Assembly (NCBI RefSeq): GCF_001458295.1
Contig: NZ_CYUD01000002.1
Location: 186,001-250,000 of the forward strand
Source: Ruegeria denitrificans
GTDB taxonomy: Bacteria; Pseudomonadota; Alphaproteobacteria; Rhodobacterales; Rhodobacteraceae
DNA length: 64,000 nt
Direction of reading: 5' to 3'
In this document: positions 1 through 20,591 of the stretch, piece after piece
How the letters are laid out: each line of letters starts with the position of its first letter
How positions within the stretch are numbered: the stretch's first letter is position 1
Notes under the pieces: generated by a model
Databases searched by the model: none
What the model saw: the letters and a program-made list of their open reading frames with translations, nothing else
What the model was told of the DNA's origin: nothing
Translations under genes and position numbers: made by a program

Positions 1-1419
1 AACGTCTTTCGACCGAATTACGCGCAGAAGCTGTCGCTGCTGGCTACGCTACCGCTGATTGTGGCCGTGGCGGCGATTGCCATCCTGGTCGCGCATCAGT
101 CCCGCAAACTGGCCGAGCGCGAAATCGACCAGCTCGAAGAGCAATTGATCGAGGCCAAGAAGGCCGAGCTTCGCAACTACGTTACCCAAGCACGTAACGG
201 GTTTTACTTCGTCTACGGCTCGGCCCAGCCCGACGATCAGGACGCCAAGGATCAGGTCGCGCAAATCCTTTCGGCGATGATCTACGGCGATGACGGGTTC
301 TTTTTCGTCTATGATTATGACGGCACCAATCTGGTCAGCCCGCGTCAGACCGATCTGATCAACAAGAACTGGAGCGGCCTGACCGACAGCGAAGGCACCC
401 CCGTCGTGGACGAGTTGATCCGTATCGCCCGCCAAGGTGCGGGATATCACACCTATCTGTGGCCCAAACCTTCGACCGGGGAAGAGGCACAGATGATCAC
501 CTACGTCACCAGCTTTCCCAGCTGGCAATGGGCCGTGGGCACCGGGGTGTTCATTGACGATGTAGTCGCCTCGATCGCCGCTGCAAGAGCCGAGGTCGAG
601 GCCCGCGTGCGCCGGACATTCTACTATATCGGTGGGATCACTCTGGCGGCGGTGCTGGTCGTTTTTGCCTCGGGCATGCTCCTAAATTTCCGAGAACGGC
701 GGTTGGCGGATGCCAAGCTGAAAGAGTTGACCCAAAGGGTACTTGACGCGCAAGAGGAAGAGCGCGGCCGCGTGGCGCGCGAATTGCACGATGGGATCAG
801 CCAGATTCTGGTCGGCGTACGTTATGCGCTGGATAACGCGCGGCGGCGTCTTGCGCGAGGCGATGATGACGGGGCGCACGACCCTTTGGACAAGGGGATC
901 GAGCATCTCGGCACCGCCATCACCGAGGTTCGCCGCATCAGCCGTGACCTGCGCCCGGGTGTGTTGGACGATCTGGGCCTTGGCCCTGCCGTCAAGGCGC
1001 TGACCGACGATTTCCGCGAACGAACGGGGATCGAGACCCATTTCTCGACCGTCGTGTTTCGCAACCGGCTGGATCAGGATGCCAAAATCGCTCTTTACCG
1101 CATCGCACAGGAAGCCCTGACTAATATCGAACGGCACGCCGATGCAACGCGTGTTACAATTGACCTGCGCGGCCATAAAAAGGGTGCCACCATGCGCATC
1201 ACCGACAATGGCTGCGGCCTGCCGCGAGAGACCGATGGCATCAGCACCGGAATCGGACTGCGCAATATGCAGGAACGCATCGAACAACTTGACGGGTCGT
1301 TGCGCATTCTGTCATCACGCAGCCCGCGCGGCGGTACGGTGATCGAGGTCACCCTGCCGCTCAGCCACCTGCTCCCGCCGCAGGAAGACGCAACTCCGAA
1401 CCGAAAGGCCGGTACATGA
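1..1419 (+). CDS. Cache-domain sensor histidine kinase (5' partial)
   Basis: Membrane sensor kinase that should phosphorylate the response regulator encoded immediately downstream. The frame is open from base 1, so the true start lies upstream; a GTG at 61 is inside the first membrane segment and is unlikely to be the start. In order: TM1 (about nt 28-100), a periplasmic single Cache domain of the sCache_2 type (about nt 180-560, with YGDDGFFFVYDYDGTNLV and WQWAVGTGVF), TM2 (about nt 630-690), a HisKA_3 dimerisation region with the phospho-accepting His in ARELHDGIS (codon at nt 787), and a HATPase_c domain (N box EALTNIERHA, G1 box DNGCGL, G2 GIGLRNM). This is the NarL/FixJ class. The stop overlaps the start of the response regulator (ATGA at 1416). 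The ligand is unknown; Cache domains of this type usually bind small organic acids or amino acids. Confidence 0.93.
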   Translation, partial: NVFRPNYAQKLSLLATLPLIVAVAAIAILVAHQSRKLAEREIDQLEEQLIEAKKAELRNYVTQARNGFYFVYGSAQPDDQDAKDQVAQILSAMIYGDDGFFFVYDYDGTNLVSPRQTDLINKNWSGLTDSEGTPVVDELIRIARQGAGYHTYLWPKPSTGEEAQMITYVTSFPSWQWAVGTGVFIDDVVASIAAARAEVEARVRRTFYYIGGITLAAVLVVFASGMLLNFRERRLADAKLKELTQRVLDAQEEERGRVARELHDGISQILVGVRYALDNARRRLARGDDDGAHDPLDKGIEHLGTAITEVRRISRDLRPGVLDDLGLGPAVKALTDDFRERTGIETHFSTVVFRNRLDQDAKIALYRIAQEALTNIERHADATRVTIDLRGHKKGATMRITDNGCGLPRETDGISTGIGLRNMQERIEQLDGSLRILSSRSPRGGTVIEVTLPLSHLLPPQEDATPNRKAGT

Positions 1420-2063
1420 GCGCACAAACGATCCGGGTCCTGATTGTGGACGACCACCCAATGGTGGCCGAAGGGATTCAGTCGATCCTTGAAAGCTATC
1501 CCGAGATTGAGGTGGTCTGCACCCTTGGCACCGGACAAGAGGCCGTGGATCAGGCCGCCGACCTGTCCCCTGATGTGATCCTGATGGATCTGAACATGCC
1601 CGGCCTGGGCGGGCTCAGCGCCACCGAGATCATTCTGGAAAGGCTGCCCGAAACCCGCATCCTGATCCTGTCGATGCATGACAGCCCCGAATATATCTCG
1701 ACCGCGCTGAACCACGGTGCAAAGGGCTATGTCCTCAAAGATGTTCCAACGGAAGAAATCAAGCAGGCCATCGACGCGGTAATGCGCGGCGAGCAGTATC
1801 TGTGCACCGGAGCCAGCGGATCGCTGCAGCCCAAACAGGACAGCGCGCGCGAGGCGCTGACCGGTCGCGAACAGACGATCCTGCTTGAACTGGCACAGGG
1901 AAAATCCAACAAAGAGGTCGCGCAGGCCCTGGAAATCTCTGTCCGCACCGTAGAAACCCACCGCAAGAACATCAAACGCAAACTGGGTATCTCCTCAACT
2001 GCGGGCCTGACCCGCTACGCGCTGGAACACGGGGTCCTGCAAGGCACCAGCCCCGGTTTCTAA
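1416..2063 (+). CDS. LuxR/NarL-family response regulator
   Basis: DNA-binding response regulator, partner of the overlapping kinase gene. The 215 residues are normal for the family. The receiver domain (about 6-120) has the acidic pair D12/D13, the phospho-acceptor D58 in VILMDLNMPG and the conserved K108 in GYVLKD. The LuxR-type helix-turn-helix lies at about 148-210 (LTGREQTILLELAQGKSNKEVA, then SVRTVETHRKNIKRKL). Translational coupling through the four-base overlap supports a co-expressed two-component pair. Target genes cannot be told from the sequence. Confidence 0.95.
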   Translation: MSAQTIRVLIVDDHPMVAEGIQSILESYPEIEVVCTLGTGQEAVDQAADLSPDVILMDLNMPGLGGLSATEIILERLPETRILILSMHDSPEYISTALNHGAKGYVLKDVPTEEIKQAIDAVMRGEQYLCTGASGSLQPKQDSAREALTGREQTILLELAQGKSNKEVAQALEISVRTVETHRKNIKRKLGISSTAGLTRYALEHGVLQGTSPGF

Positions 2064-2071
2064 ACGCACCC

Positions 2072-2088
2072 GCAGCGCGCAGCGCTGC
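2072..2088. terminator. Hairpin after the two-component operon
   Basis: Perfect 7-bp inverted repeat GCAGCGC / GCGCTGC with a 3-nt loop, 8 nt after the response regulator stop. No T tract follows, so it would be at best a Rho-assisted or mRNA 3'-end-stabilising structure. Confidence 0.4.
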
Positions 2089-2142
2089 CTGGCCCAACTG
2101 GCAAAGATACGCCGCAGGCGCACCGACAACGGGCGGGAGGGC

Positions 2143-2526
2143 TTAATCCCTTGGACGGATATCCTGTCCAAAAAACACCAACGTTCCGTCTTCGTCGATG
2201 ACGTGAAACTCGCGCTGCAAATAGGGTTGGTCGAACGGCGGGCGCACACGCCCTTCTGACAGGTCAGACAATTCCGGTCGCAAGCTGTCGTACAATTCGT
2301 CGATCCCGTCGACATCTATGTAAAAAGACTGATCTTCTCCTAACGGCCGACCGTCATCACGCTGCGGGCATTCCAACAACCGGATAGCCAACGACCCCAA
2401 TGACAAATAGGCGTAATTGTCCTGCTGGAACCCGCAAGAAAATCCCAAACGGTTGCAGTAGAAATCAATCTGCTTTTGCAGGGACGAACACAACACAAAT
2501 GGCGTAAGTTGCAAAATCTTGGGCAT
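2143..2526 (-). CDS. VOC-superfamily (glyoxalase/bleomycin resistance-like) protein
   Basis: A 127-residue protein with the single-domain VOC layout: an N-terminal strand (LTPFVLCSSLQKQIDFYCNRLGF), a central YLSLGSLAIRLLE segment, and a C-terminal HVIDEDGTLVFFGQD that matches the usual 'DPDGN' metal-side strand. Members are glyoxalases, dioxygenases or antibiotic-binding proteins; the substrate cannot be predicted. It lies 47 nt downstream of the Fe(II)/2-oxoglutarate oxygenase gene on the same strand, so the two are probably co-transcribed. Confidence 0.75.
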   Translation of the reverse strand: MPKILQLTPFVLCSSLQKQIDFYCNRLGFSCGFQQDNYAYLSLGSLAIRLLECPQRDDGRPLGEDQSFYIDVDGIDELYDSLRPELSDLSEGRVRPPFDQPYLQREFHVIDEDGTLVFFGQDIRPRD

Positions 2527-2573
2527 CGAACCCTCCGGTTGCTACAATCCCCTGTATTTTAACCTCAGATATT

Positions 2574-3419
2574 TCAGTCCAGCAATTGATCCCTCCGTGT
2601 TCCTTCACGCGCATGATGATGCGAAAATACACGCCCGTAAAGTTGCCGTGTGCGTTCAACGCCACCGCACATCCCCTCCGCTTCGACGAATGAGAAAATC
2701 CCAACATATCGGGTGCGCGCACCCGTTACCGGCGCCACCCTGTGCAGCGCGTACCGCCCCTTGAATATCTGCAGGTCCCCCGGTTGTAACGCCAGCTCTC
2801 GCACCCGCGCCCTGTTTCCGTCCAGAACCGAAGCCACGGCTTTGAAATTCTCATCGTCGGCCGTGCGCAGATTGGGCACATATTCAAACGTACCCCCGGC
2901 CTCTCCGTTCTGAATGGCCAGCGTGACGGTGTAATTGTTGGTGTCGAAATGCCAGGGAAAGCCCTGCCCCTCTTCGACTACGTTGATAATCACGTCGGCC
3001 AGAGGATCATCGTAGCGAAAGAACCGGTCTTCCGGCTCATCCAACGCGTCCCGGACAAAGGGCATAAACCACTCATATTCGTAAATTCGGCGTAAAGGAC
3101 CCGAGGTGGCAAAATTATCCGCCGGGACAAAGGCGTTTGAGCGTTCATAGAAACGGCGTATCGGATGCCCGATCCCAAAACGCGGATCATCCTTTGTGAA
3201 ATAGGCGTTGGTCCTGTTGAAAGACCTATGCGCCTGTGGGGAAACCTCACCCGCCTCGTGCACCAGCTGCTCCAACCCGTCTTCGTGGACAAATCCGGGC
3301 AGAACCGCACAACCATCCTGATCAAGCTCGCGCCGCACATCCGCGATCATCTGATCATAACCTCGCGACCCCGGTCGATCGATCGGATACCGCCCCAGAT
3401 CTATCAAGTCCTGCAGCAT
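2574..3419 (-). CDS. HalD/BesD-like Fe(II)/2-oxoglutarate-dependent oxygenase
   Basis: Predicted non-haem iron oxygenase of 281 residues. The core reads WHFDTNNYTVTLAIQ, then ALHRV, then GARTRYVG. This gives a facial triad of H157, D159 and H226, with R235 or R237 to bind 2-oxoglutarate. The long N-terminal part (RSFNRTNAYFTKDD, RFYERSNAFVPADN) resembles the BesD/HalD amino-acid halogenase family, in which the Asp is replaced by Gly or Ala to make room for chloride. Here the Asp is present, so hydroxylation is the more likely reaction, possibly on a free amino acid. I chose the start at 3419 because GGGAGG lies 6 nt upstream; a longer frame reaches 3476. The VOC gene follows in the same direction. 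Confidence 0.75.
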   Translation of the reverse strand: MLQDLIDLGRYPIDRPGSRGYDQMIADVRRELDQDGCAVLPGFVHEDGLEQLVHEAGEVSPQAHRSFNRTNAYFTKDDPRFGIGHPIRRFYERSNAFVPADNFATSGPLRRIYEYEWFMPFVRDALDEPEDRFFRYDDPLADVIINVVEEGQGFPWHFDTNNYTVTLAIQNGEAGGTFEYVPNLRTADDENFKAVASVLDGNRARVRELALQPGDLQIFKGRYALHRVAPVTGARTRYVGIFSFVEAEGMCGGVERTRQLYGRVFSHHHAREGTRRDQLLD

Positions 3420-3642
3420 TTTCCGCCTCCCATACCTGTTCAACTGAGACCAGCGTGCCGCACAGAACCCAACCACTCATGTCAATTTTGGACATCGCTT
3501 TGACGCTTTCAGACCTGTGGGAAATTAGCTTTACGTGCCTTGAATGGGCCAAAATTCGCGGAAATTCCCAACCTGCGGCAATCTGCGCAATAAAATGTCG
3601 CAAAAACTGCATCTCGAGTTACAAAATTGGTACGATTGCCGG

Positions 3643-16551: not shown

Positions 16552-17910
16552 ATGGCTTTTGAACGCTTATCCAGGGTGGCGTCAATCCCGACCCTGTTGC
16601 TGGTGGCAGTGACATGGATGGCAAGCCTTGTTCCGGCGAACGCTCAGGGCTTGATCCGAGACCCCGATATCGAACACGGGCTGCGTGAGCTAGCCTTTCC
16701 GATTTTGCGCGCGGCTGGGCTGAACACCAACCGGGTCAAGATACTGGTGGTCAATGACCGCACGTTCAACGCCTTTGTCATAGATTATAGCGCGATCTAC
16801 CTGAATTACGGGCTGATTCTAAATGTCGAAAGCCCCGAAATGCTGCAGGCGGTTATCGCCCACGAGGCCGCGCATATCGCCAACGGTCACTTGGCGCGAC
16901 GGGCCGAGAACCTGCGCGTCGCACAGCGCAAAGCAGGGTTCGGAACCGCGCTGGCCCTGATTGCTGCGGCCGCTGGCGGTGGGGAGGCGGCGGCAGGCAT
17001 TGCGGCAGGCACCCAAAGCGCCGCGCTGCGCAGTTTTTTAGGGCACACACGGGCCGAGGAATCCTCGGCCGATCAAAGTGCCGCCAGCTATCTAAGATGG
17101 GCCGGTATCTCGCCCGTTGGAATGGTCGCACTGCATCAGAAATTCGCGGGTCAGGAACTGCTGAATACCGTCAATCAGGACCCTTATATGCGGTCGCACC
17201 CCACCAGTCGCGAGCGCCTGCGCGTGGCCCAAAGGTTTATGGAGCAACACGGCGACTGGTCAACGACGGACCCAAATGCCGATTACTGGTTCGCGCGGGT
17301 CAAAGGTAAGCTGTCGGCCTTTCTTAGGTCCCCGACATGGACCATGCGACGCGCTAAAGAGGAAAACGCACAGGATGTGCGCCTGATGCGCGAGGCCTCG
17401 GCCTATCATCAGAACCGTGATCTGGCCAATGCCCGCGCGAACATTGACGAGGCATTGGCAATTCGCCCGGATGATCCGTTTTATTATGAGCTCAAGGGCC
17501 AGATTCTGCTGGAAAACCGTCAAGTTCAGGATGCGGTGCAGGCCTATGGCAAGGCGGTCGAATTGGCCCCTAATGATGCATTGATTTTAGCTGGGTACGG
17601 GCGTGCTCTACTGGCGCAAGGTCAGACGAAGATTGCCTTGCAAGTCCTTGAGAAAGCTCGTCAAAGAGATTATCGAAACGCCAGACTGATGCAAGACCTC
17701 GGGGTCGCATATGCAAAGGTTGGCAACAACGGCATGGCCTCGGTCGTGACTGCGGAACGATATGCCCTGCATGGCCGACTGGCCGATGCGGGAATTCACG
17801 CAAAACGAGCCCTTGGACAATTGCCCGAAGGCTCATCGGGTTGGCAAAGGGCACAAGATGTGCTGATTGCTTCGGAACGCGCAAAGAAAGCGAAAAGGAA
17901 ACGGAAATGA
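16552..17910 (+). CDS. BepA-like M48 metalloprotease with TPR repeats
   Basis: Periplasmic zinc protease resembling BepA (YfgC), which degrades or helps assemble stalled outer-membrane proteins. A signal peptide is visible (PTLLLVAVTWMASLVPANAQG). The M48 domain has VIAHEAAHIANGHLARR (HExxH) and the downstream zinc ligand Glu in RAEESSADQSA. TPR-type repeats fill the C-terminal part (about 290-430, AYGKAVELAPNDALILAGYGRALLAQG). The start is uncertain: 16552 gives 452 residues, while an in-frame ATG at 16528 adds eight. The stop overlaps the start of the DsbA-like gene by four bases, so the two are translationally coupled. Confidence 0.9.
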   Translation: MAFERLSRVASIPTLLLVAVTWMASLVPANAQGLIRDPDIEHGLRELAFPILRAAGLNTNRVKILVVNDRTFNAFVIDYSAIYLNYGLILNVESPEMLQAVIAHEAAHIANGHLARRAENLRVAQRKAGFGTALALIAAAAGGGEAAAGIAAGTQSAALRSFLGHTRAEESSADQSAASYLRWAGISPVGMVALHQKFAGQELLNTVNQDPYMRSHPTSRERLRVAQRFMEQHGDWSTTDPNADYWFARVKGKLSAFLRSPTWTMRRAKEENAQDVRLMREASAYHQNRDLANARANIDEALAIRPDDPFYYELKGQILLENRQVQDAVQAYGKAVELAPNDALILAGYGRALLAQGQTKIALQVLEKARQRDYRNARLMQDLGVAYAKVGNNGMASVVTAERYALHGRLADAGIHAKRALGQLPEGSSGWQRAQDVLIASERAKKAKRKRK

Positions 17911-18665
17911 TCCTCAGACATGCAGCACCCGCCCTTCTGGGGCTTTCCCTGATTACTGGCCCTGCGCAAGCGCTGGATCTGAACGCGCTCAGTCCTTCGG
18001 AAAAGGAAGAGTTTGGCGCACAGGTGCGCGAGTACCTATTGGAGAACCCCGAGGTGATCATCGAGGCGATCAACATCCTTGAACAACGCAACGCGGTTGC
18101 CGAGGCCGCCGCTGACCAGGAACTGGTGGCCGCTAATGCCGATGAGCTGTTTAATGACGGCTACAGCTGGGTGGGAGGCAATCCAGACGGCGACATAACG
18201 CTGGTCGAATTCATGGATTATCGTTGTGGATATTGCCGCCGTGCAGTCTCGGAAGTGGCGAGCCTTCTGTCCGAGGACGGAAATATCCGGCTGGTGATCA
18301 AGGAATTCCCAATTCTGGGTGAGGCCTCGGTCCTGTCGTCGCGCTTTGCAGTGGCCACCAAACATGTGGCCGGTGACGACGCATACAAACAAGTGCACGA
18401 CGCTCTGCTGGAATTTGGCGGCGAACCGACCGAGATTTCCCTGCGCCGCATTTCCGATGGTCTAGGTCTGGACAGCGACGCGATCATCGCCGCGATGGAC
18501 AGCGATCAAGTAACCGATGAAATCACGCGTACACGCGCGTTGGCGCAGCGGATGCAGATTTCCGGAACGCCGTCTTTCATTCTGGGCACAGAAATGCTGC
18601 GCGGCTTCCTACCTGCGGATCAGATGATACAAATTGCCGACGCTGTGCGCGCCGAGCAGGGATAG
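17907..18665 (+). CDS. DsbA/Com1-like periplasmic thiol:disulfide oxidoreductase
   Basis: Secreted thioredoxin-fold protein of 252 residues. A signal peptide (about 1-22, ending GPAQA) is followed by a helical N-terminal extension (SEKEEFGAQVREYLLENPEVIIEAI). The thioredoxin fold carries the redox motif C107-G-Y-C110 in EFMDYRCGYCRRA and the cis-Pro loop SGTPSFILG. This layout is that of the 'DsbA family protein' (BdbD/Com1-like) common in alphaproteobacteria. It could oxidise or isomerise disulfides of envelope proteins. Its start lies inside the stop of the BepA-like gene (ATGA), preceded by AAAAGGAAACGG. Confidence 0.92.
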   Translation: MILRHAAPALLGLSLITGPAQALDLNALSPSEKEEFGAQVREYLLENPEVIIEAINILEQRNAVAEAAADQELVAANADELFNDGYSWVGGNPDGDITLVEFMDYRCGYCRRAVSEVASLLSEDGNIRLVIKEFPILGEASVLSSRFAVATKHVAGDDAYKQVHDALLEFGGEPTEISLRRISDGLGLDSDAIIAAMDSDQVTDEITRTRALAQRMQISGTPSFILGTEMLRGFLPADQMIQIADAVRAEQG

Positions 18666-18672
18666 TAGGTTT

Positions 18673-18691
18673 GGGGCGGTCAAACCGCCCC
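18673..18691 (+). terminator. GC-rich hairpin after the DsbA-like gene
   Basis: GGGGCGGT / ACCGCCCC, 8 bp with a 3-nt loop, starting 7 nt after the stop codon. Only two T residues follow, so its strength as an intrinsic terminator is doubtful. Confidence 0.5.
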
Positions 18692-18878
18692 TTGCCAACT
18701 ACCGTTCCGAGGTTCAGTGAGAGTATATCTCCTCTCTGACCCAATCTCAGGCGTACTCGTTTTCCTTATTATTCTCAAAGCCATTCGGAAAAATCGGCAA
18801 ACGCTTTTCCCTAAATGGGCTTTTCGACAGCATTCAACTAAAGCGCGATTGATTAAGCAGAATTTGAGCAAGTAACCT

Positions 18879-19454
18879 ATGAAAAAGAAAGGCGCTGCCC
18901 TTTACTACTTAACGGCAGGATGGGCATTGATGACCGTCACAATCGGTCTGTATTTTCTGTTTTCCGGCATGGCTCCAACAGCTGACGTTGAAGCCCATTA
19001 TGAAAACAGACCAGGTACTGTCCGGATTGCAAGCTGGAAACCCGGCGACGCGAGATTGCTGAAAGTCAAAGGGAAGCCGGTCACTATTTGGCGTCGTGAT
19101 CTTGCAGAAATGGCAAGTGCAATGGCGCAATTCGACCCAAGTGTCCCTCTGGAAGAATGGTCTGGATTGTTAGAAAGTGGCTCGCTTAAACAGGAGCTAG
19201 GTCCCGAAGTTTTTGCGCGTCTTGAGTGGTTCATCGTCAGCCTGATAAGCACTGCAGGGCTCGGGTGTATTATACTAGCAAAAACTGGCAACTATGCGGG
19301 GTTCTTCGATCCGTGCGCCGGTGTGCACTACGACATGTGGGGCCGCCCTCAGAAAGGCCCAACCAATGAAATCCTGGTAGTGCCACCACATAGGACCAAC
19401 GTAGAGGGGCAATTTGTCGTTATTGACACTTCAAGATTGCCAGCGCCGAAATAG
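18879..19454 (+). CDS. Degenerate Rieske-like protein lacking the iron-sulfur ligands
   Basis: 191 residues that follow the layout of the cytochrome bc1 Rieske subunit without its cluster ligands. The N terminus KKKGAALYYLTAGWA parallels the Rieske Tat/anchor region (RRDFLYYATAG) but with Lys for the twin Arg, and a membrane helix follows at about 12-31. APTADVEA, LKVKGKPVTIWRRD and GRPQKGP are Rieske landmarks. The first cluster box, normally CTHLGC, reads S124-T-A126-G-L-G-C130. The second, normally CPCHGSHYD, reads D144-P-C146-A147-GVHYD. All four ligands are therefore replaced (C to S, H to A, C to D, H to A), while both disulfide cysteines remain. The gene is AT-richer than its neighbours and stands alone. 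Its function is unknown; it may be a structural or regulatory paralogue. Confidence 0.75.
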   Translation: MKKKGAALYYLTAGWALMTVTIGLYFLFSGMAPTADVEAHYENRPGTVRIASWKPGDARLLKVKGKPVTIWRRDLAEMASAMAQFDPSVPLEEWSGLLESGSLKQELGPEVFARLEWFIVSLISTAGLGCIILAKTGNYAGFFDPCAGVHYDMWGRPQKGPTNEILVVPPHRTNVEGQFVVIDTSRLPAPK

Positions 19455-19469
19455 GCTTGCCTTCGCGCC

Positions 19470-20591
19470 CTATTCTGCCGCTTCAGCAGCGGCGTCCAAC
19501 TCAGCCGCCTTCTTCTCGACCTCTTCGACGATGTGGTCGATCATCTGGTCGTTTGACATCTTGTGGCTGGCCTTTCCCGCCAGATAGACCATGCCCGATC
19601 CAGCCCCACCACCTGTAAAGCCGACATCGGTCATCAATGCCTCGCCCGGGCCGTTGACCACGCACCCGATGATGGACAGGCTCATCGGGGTCTTGATGTG
19701 CTCCAACCGCTGCTCAAGCTCTTCGACCGTCTTGATCACGTCGAACCCCTGCCGCGCGCAGGACGGGCATGAGATTATGTTCACACCGCGATGGCGCAGG
19801 CCCAGAGATTTCAGGATCTCATAGCCAACCTTGACCTCTTCGACCGGATCGGCAGACAGGCTGACGCGGATCGTATCGCCAATGCCCATCCAAAGCAGAT
19901 TGCCCAACCCGATAGACGATTTGATTGTCCCCGACACCAGACCTCCTGCCTCGGTGATGCCCAGGTGAATCGGGGCGTCGGTCGCCTCGGCGATACCCTG
20001 ATAGGCGGCGGCGGACAGGAATACGTCGCTGGCCTTCACGCTGATCTTGAATTCGTGAAAGTCGTTGTCCTGCAGGATTCGGATATGCTCGAGCCCGCTT
20101 TCAACCATCGCTTCGGGGCACGGTTCGCCATATTTCTCAAGCAGGTGCTTTTCCAGACTGCCTGCATTCACGCCAATCCGGATCGAGCAATTGTGGTCAC
20201 GCGCCGCGCTGATGACCTCTTTCACCCGCTTTTCATCACCAATATTACCCGGGTTGATCCGCAGACAGGCGGCACCGGCCTCGGCGGCCTCGATCCCGCG
20301 GCGATAGTGGAAATGAATATCGGCCACAATCGGCACCGGGCATTCGCGCACGATCTCTTTCAGGGCTTTCGATGACGCTTCATCGGGTACTGACACGCGC
20401 ACGATATCGGCACCTGCCTCGGCTGCGGCCTGTACCTGCGCTACGGTCGCGGCAACATCGGTCGTCAGCGTGTTGGTCATCGTCTGTACGGCAATTGGAG
20501 CATCTCCGCCGACGGCAACATCCCCGACCATGATCTGACGGGATTTACGGCGGTAGATATTGCGCCACGGGCGAACATGATTGAGCGACAT
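19470..20591 (-). CDS. ispG: 4-hydroxy-3-methylbut-2-enyl diphosphate synthase
   Basis: [4Fe-4S] enzyme of the MEP isoprenoid pathway, converting MEcPP to HMBPP. The 373 residues are full length. The TIM-barrel N-terminal part starts [35 protein letters not shown]. The cluster-binding C-terminal domain contains [15 protein letters not shown] and the third Cys with the conserved [10 protein letters not shown]. It is downstream of the rodZ-like gene on the same strand (71 nt apart), an arrangement seen in many proteobacteria. Confidence 0.97.

Follow-up and report, generated by a model that had tools for sequence, protein, structure and literature searches.

A family of cluster-free bc1 Rieske paralogues in an exchange hotspot of Ruegeria and in other Rhodobacteraceae

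We analyzed a stretch of 64,000 nucleotides from contig NZ_CYUD01000002.1 of the marine bacterium Ruegeria denitrificans, hereafter the window, and a gene on its plus strand (18879..19454, ATG start, TAG stop) that its open reading frame and homologues identify as a paralogue, 191 residues long and without cluster ligands, of the Rieske iron-sulfur subunit of the cytochrome bc1 complex. Alignment and the predicted structure place an N-terminal anchor, which retains LYYxTAG but not most of the residues conserved there in true Rieske proteins, at residues 6-30 (18894..18968), within a helix predicted over residues 2-30; the aligned tether with PTADV follows at residues 31-42 (18969..19004). Two degenerate cluster boxes lie further downstream on the same strand. 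Box 1 (S124-C130, 19248..19268) has lost its ligand Cys and His and retains C130, and box 2 (G141-D152, 19299..19334) carries D144 for the ligand Cys and A147 for the ligand His and retains C146.

Where the genome's own PetA has the boxes CTHLGC and CPCHGSHYD, the window protein reads STAGLGC and DPCAGVHYD. S124 occupies the first ligand Cys position. The first ligand His position falls on G127 with HMMER or on A126 with MAFFT L-INS-i, because box 1 contains an extra residue relative to true Rieske proteins, and neither placement restores a ligand. The frame, the protein length and the bc1 Rieske landmarks described in the first-pass annotation held on rereading, as did its claim that the Cys, His, Cys and His ligands are all gone; its list of Ser124, Ala126, Asp144 and Ala147 is right in containing no ligand but may be one residue off at the first His. 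C130 and C146, claimed there as retained disulfide cysteines, do align with those of true Rieske proteins and form a putative disulfide. The motif for twin-arginine translocation (Tat) is absent as stated, but the residues in register are K4-G5 and not a Lys pair (residues 2-4 are KKK).

Among solved structures, bc1 Rieske subunits are closest in sequence (best 2qjp_C, HMMER E 1.1e-15, residues 7-170). At 58.1 bits, the window protein falls below the curated cut-off of 97.4 for NCBIfam TIGR01416. No Pfam family matched it (P0001) at E<=1 or matched three relatives (P0052, the L086 frame and P0012) at E<=0.01, and the gene was absent from the matches listed in a genome-wide PF00355 search. AlphaFold2, fed with cluster-free rows alone, returned the bc1 Rieske fold with an anchor, the fold on which the earlier reading depended; the window protein is thus predicted to keep both the membrane anchor and the Rieske fold. 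The disulfide Cys pair and the predicted anchored fold agree with a bc1 Rieske subunit, and the ligands, the twin arginine, adjacency to petB and a score above the TIGR01416 cut-off are all missing, so that by the defining features tested the window protein is outside that family. An intact petA, which the first-pass annotation had suggested looking for, lies on contig 9 of the same genome with both boxes full and is followed by petB; besides its own gene, P0001 matches only this petA in the genome, at 36% identity.

Relatives were collected by protein searches covering all sources and by genome searches covering Ruegeria, Rhodobacteraceae and Alphaproteobacteria. The initial protein search gave 9 proteins at E<=1e-3, one of them (P0002) the window protein itself in shortened form. 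Profile searches at E<=1e-5 gave 24 and then 72 proteins, or 21 and 69 after removal from each list of three true Rieske proteins, recognized by their Rieske Pfam domains. The alignment, restricted to lengths of 150-300, comprises 80 family rows, among them the window protein itself and, as duplicates of each other, at least P0028 and the L086 frame, and 44 true Rieske rows. Short or truncated proteins (P0002, P0009, P0010, P0081, P0082) and true Rieske proteins with Pfam domains (P0023, P0024, P0025, P0083, P0084) were excluded from the family rows. The true rows are fetched loci containing CTHLG, their box 1 being intact by selection and their box 2 unselected.

All 44 true rows carry the complete C, H, C, H set. 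Among the 80 family rows, none has a ligand Cys at a ligand Cys position, and His occurs once at position 126 and once at 147. C130 and C146 are each present in 22/80 family rows, and the soluble domain is free of Cys in 56/80. The statement that the protein keeps its disulfide therefore suits the window protein and about 22 of the 80 rows but not the 56 Cys-free ones; with C130 and C146 present, the window protein falls in the minority of the family that keeps the disulfide. RR precedes the anchor in 44/44 true and 22/80 family rows; in the family rows displayed it mostly follows directly after a Met, and RRxF was found in 0/80. Judged from the aligned rows, the shared losses are far beyond chance. 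The search for relatives with the same substitutions, another check proposed at first pass, thus returned a whole clade rather than a lone oddity. In public records, members such as P0004, P0008 and P0052 bear the name of the iron-sulfur subunit of ubiquinol-cytochrome c reductase, and such naming of cluster-free proteins misleads respiratory reconstructions.

In a maximum-likelihood tree of 25 family and 39 true rows, the family stood apart at 100/100. A second tree, built after removal of the columns of both boxes from 25 family and 16 Rhodobacteraceae true rows and rooted on five outside Rieske proteins, again recovered one clade at 100/100. The family joins the Rhodobacteraceae true rows at 99/92, its branching place among those rows not being fixed by the tree; rows P0015 and P0018 sit on long branches. 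The trees support the view that the family arose once, from a Rhodobacteraceae PetA, and by its sequences it is a real clade of cofactor-free bc1 Rieske paralogues. Four disulfide-free tree rows nest within Cys-bearing rows, and thus the cluster appears to have been lost before the disulfide.

Mean identity between family and true Rieske rows is 0.29 overall and varies strongly along the protein. The PxADVxA tether (residues 31-42, 0.54) is among the segments most alike, together with residues 135-143 (0.55) and 153-168 (0.53); the anchor (0.24), box 1 (0.20) and box 2 (0.31) are far less similar. Within the family, W71, W117, D152 and G155 are invariant across several genera, position 144 is D or E in 79/80 rows, and H150 is conserved at 0.97.

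The gene occupies the convergent dsbA-ispG interval (18666..19469, unstranded), delimited by comparison across Ruegeria genomes. Its left border is a gene for a DsbA/ScsC-like thioredoxin protein (17841..18665, plus strand), followed by a terminator-like hairpin GGGGCGG-CCGCCCC (18673..18691, plus strand, by eye); its right border is ispG, named by eye (19470..20591, minus strand). ispG was matched in 54/54 Ruegeria genomes, and the interval could be delimited in 52 of them, the exceptions being G045 (contig end) and G036. Among these 52 intervals (L088-L140 plus the window), seven contain the gene, one a remnant, four are nearly empty (74-101 bp), and the other 40 hold different sequence of 513-2413 bp, including, by eye, agmatine-deiminase-like, FkbM-methyltransferase-like, lipoprotein-like and acetyltransferase-like open reading frames. 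As a hotspot of gene exchange, the interval has many alternative contents, each of one or two genes. In G015 and G029 it holds the cluster-free gene and another open reading frame; in carriers G006, G012, G018 and G036 the gene lies outside it. The window gene order is repeated in six of seven Ruegeria 12-kb loci. A genome of another genus, G203, has a distant member, 29% identical to the window protein, in the same interval but in opposite orientation, which suggests an independent insertion.

Besides this interval in Ruegeria and G203, no conserved neighbour was recognized. A RarD-like gene adjoins the cluster-free gene at two loci (by eye), possibly by chance. In Ruegeria halocynthiae (L047, 4637-12338), the gene lies downstream of rplK-/rplA-like and upstream of rpoB-like genes (names by eye), an unusual position for an accessory gene; rplJ/rplL-like motifs searched in L047 were not found. 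Just before the start codon, at window positions 18780-18878, a stretch of roughly TTTCGAxAx-CATTCAACxAAAGC is partly common to most hotspot copies; it may have a promoter or regulatory role, and a promoter search upstream of the Ruegeria hotspot copies gave no nameable motif.

Members of the family were found in 11 of 54 Ruegeria genomes (>=177 bits). Nine of these copies are open, those in G005 and G013 have an in-frame TGA, and G032 retains a remnant of the gene. The family and class searches list best matches, so that the true number of carriers may be higher. Of 394 Rhodobacteraceae genomes, at least seven carry a member, six (G000, G245, G130, G203, G359, G322) at >=196 bits and the seventh (G105) through a partial match confirmed by reading the sequence; the TGA codons flagged in G203 and G359 terminate the protein at its C-terminal end and do not break the frame. 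The next-best match, at 124 bits, is a true Rieske protein. Among 385 genomes in the Alphaproteobacteria search, five of them listed as own or of the same family, the best match outside the family Rhodobacteraceae reached 98 bits and none rose above the true-Rieske level; the five best outside loci have intact cluster boxes. As far as the matches listed show, most Rhodobacteraceae run bc1 without a cluster-free protein.

A link to an alternative oxidase was rejected, since cytochrome bd (PF01654) occurs in 3/11 carriers versus 12/43 other Ruegeria, the latter 12 including G038 (fragments with stops only) and G032 (remnant). A plasmid-borne family was likewise rejected. P0001 matched 78 plasmid records, all below 60% identity, and P0052 matched none; 24 of the best 25 of the 78 are annotated petA and one is unannotated, and by annotation these look like ordinary Rieske genes. 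Second Rieske copies occur in G020 (L029, with full ligands), G011, G035, G039, G040 and other Ruegeria. Together with the plasmid petA-annotated genes, these copies suggest that many Rhodobacteraceae may have a second bc1 complex. A scan of IMG/VR gave one disulfide-free member near a contig end (L169), which at 104-3474 lies behind ATPase and HNH genes resembling, by eye, a defence pair; a second viral-contig locus (L170) has no Rieske-like protein among the open reading frames listed.

Ratios of nonsynonymous to synonymous distances (dN/dS, NG86) were 0.14-0.39 in 10 family pairs, three of which include a stop-containing copy, and 0.01-0.085 in five neighbour genes at two pairs each; selection on the family is purifying but weak. 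The window gene itself, with an open frame and these family ratios, does not look like a pseudogene. In one pair, G040 and G005, the synonymous distance (dS) of the gene is 0.09 versus 0.31-0.43 in five flanking genes, which suggests that species exchanged the gene recently. G245, G012 and G006 share about 760 bp around the gene, at three places with differing surroundings (L080, L081, L082). By eye, similar short motifs of roughly GGCxGCTxTGxxCC lie near both ends of this block, where they might delimit a mobile unit. A repeat-borne cassette was rejected: the upstream flank of the G012 copy matches once each in G006, G012 and G245 and is absent from G000. The gene appears to move horizontally between species as an accessory gene. 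Taken jointly, the anatomy of the protein, the single origin of the family and the accessory nature of the gene are conclusions that we hold with very high confidence.

The protein likely functions as a structural partner and not as an electron carrier. The first-pass annotation had proposed that the protein is retained for its fold rather than to transfer electrons, a view sustained by the predicted fold, purifying selection, the clade-wide losses and the intact petA elsewhere. Our first choice is that it is possibly a decoy or modulator of bc1, a redox-silent partner that might dock at the Rieske position of the complex, to which we give a chance somewhat below even. In bc1 the tether contacts cytochromes b and c1, and the shared PxADVxA tether favours such a binder. 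The cluster would have been lost first and, in one branch, the disulfide later; with no cofactor to fold around, Tat export would no longer be needed. Anchor and tether would let the protein occupy the PetA site or compete there while passing no electrons, and quinol oxidation might thereby be tuned or protected. To judge from the interval comparison and synonymous distances, the gene would have spread as cargo of exchange hotspots. The wider proposal, that mobile cofactor-free decoys replace the electron-carrying subunit and throttle or rewire quinol oxidation in marine Rhodobacteraceae, we consider rather unlikely; if true, it would mean a mobile, redox-silent respiratory subunit.

Several observations weigh against docking, and we rate it no higher because the conservation picture is mixed. 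The tether is not unique, head segments 135-143 and 153-168 being as well shared, and it too is lost in the Marinibacterium member (P0015). The anchor lacks G16, G21, A22, A23, W25 and P26 of true Rieske proteins. The family has also lost both boxes and the second Pro of the Pro-loop, parts that dock on cytochrome b in true Rieske proteins. Moreover, the distribution is scattered, with carriers in 11/54 Ruegeria, two interrupted copies and a remnant in one further genome, and no pet gene was recognized beside the cluster-free gene at the loci read. The lost anchor residues, scattered distribution and absence of pet linkage also argue against a core assembly factor; the general form of this earlier suggestion is not supported: among the matches listed, most relatives that encode a true Rieske protein show no member, and the gene is accessory.

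The same losses of anchor residues and boxes, the hotspot location and the lack of recognized pet linkage would suit a stand-alone membrane-anchored periplasmic protein in which the Rieske scaffold is reused for a non-bc1 job in envelope, stress or defence, acting through a conserved surface of its own (W71-R72-R73 and the D/E144 region). W71 is present in 80/80 family rows at a position where 80% of true Rieske rows have Arg, and the IMG/VR member lies beside the ATPase-HNH gene pair. However, it is not obvious why a free protein would keep the tether so well, and a defence or phage family was rejected, as neither P0001 nor P0052 matches a padloc or phrogs family at E<=0.1; we regard the stand-alone protein as plausible though doubtful. 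The dN/dS values several-fold above those of neighbours, the third-position GC of 0.50 in the window gene versus 0.63-0.71 in five neighbours, and the in-frame TGA codons and remnant could instead indicate a decaying duplicate, moved by chance and without present function. This is improbable given dN/dS below 0.4 in 10/10 pairs, open frames in 9/11 Ruegeria copies, and a single clade that spans several genera and in which no row lacks W71, W117, D152 or G155. A redox protein with a different site, either a mononuclear metal at D144/H150 or a redox-active C130-C146 pair served by the DsbA/ScsC-like protein encoded next door, would explain the conservation of D/E144 and H150, but H150 and D152 are conserved in true Rieske proteins as well, most family rows have a Cys-free soluble domain and the DsbA-like neighbour is also present in genomes without the gene, which makes this explanation very improbable.

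Textbooks present the Rieske protein as an electron carrier with a single purpose. A clade with predicted fold, anchor and tether but no cluster shows what the scaffold does without its cofactor, and its members are ready-made probes for asking how anchor and tether contribute to assembly of bc1 and to movement of the head. Among the open-licence papers listed in literature searches, none showed a description of a family of bc1 Rieske paralogues without cluster, which is weak evidence of absence. Some members of NirD, the nitrite reductase small subunit, also combine a Rieske fold with missing cluster ligands; however, NirD is soluble and is not known to have an anchor or tether or to derive from the bc1 subunit. 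The second Rieske copies of Ruegeria (G020, L029) and the plasmid petA-annotated genes of Rhodobacteraceae are likewise accessory Rieske paralogues, L029 differing from the cluster-free family in having all ligands. Passages of PMC10924467 concern tail-anchored Tat substrates. The Zn-bound immature TtPetA (7yr9) is reported in PMC10492824 to be an immature form of an ordinary PetA, unlike a paralogue that has lost its ligands. The nearest known system is the bc1 Rieske subunit itself (PetA, TIGR01416; solved structures 2qjp_C, 2nve, 1rie), which the window protein resembles in its predicted fold, N-terminal anchor, PxADVxA tether, the W117, HxD, GR and G160 landmarks and the disulfide Cys pair, and from which it differs in lacking the Cys and His ligands and an in-register twin Arg, in the extra box 1 residue, W71 for Arg and the lost anchor residues, and in its place outside petABC and below the TIGR01416 cut-off.
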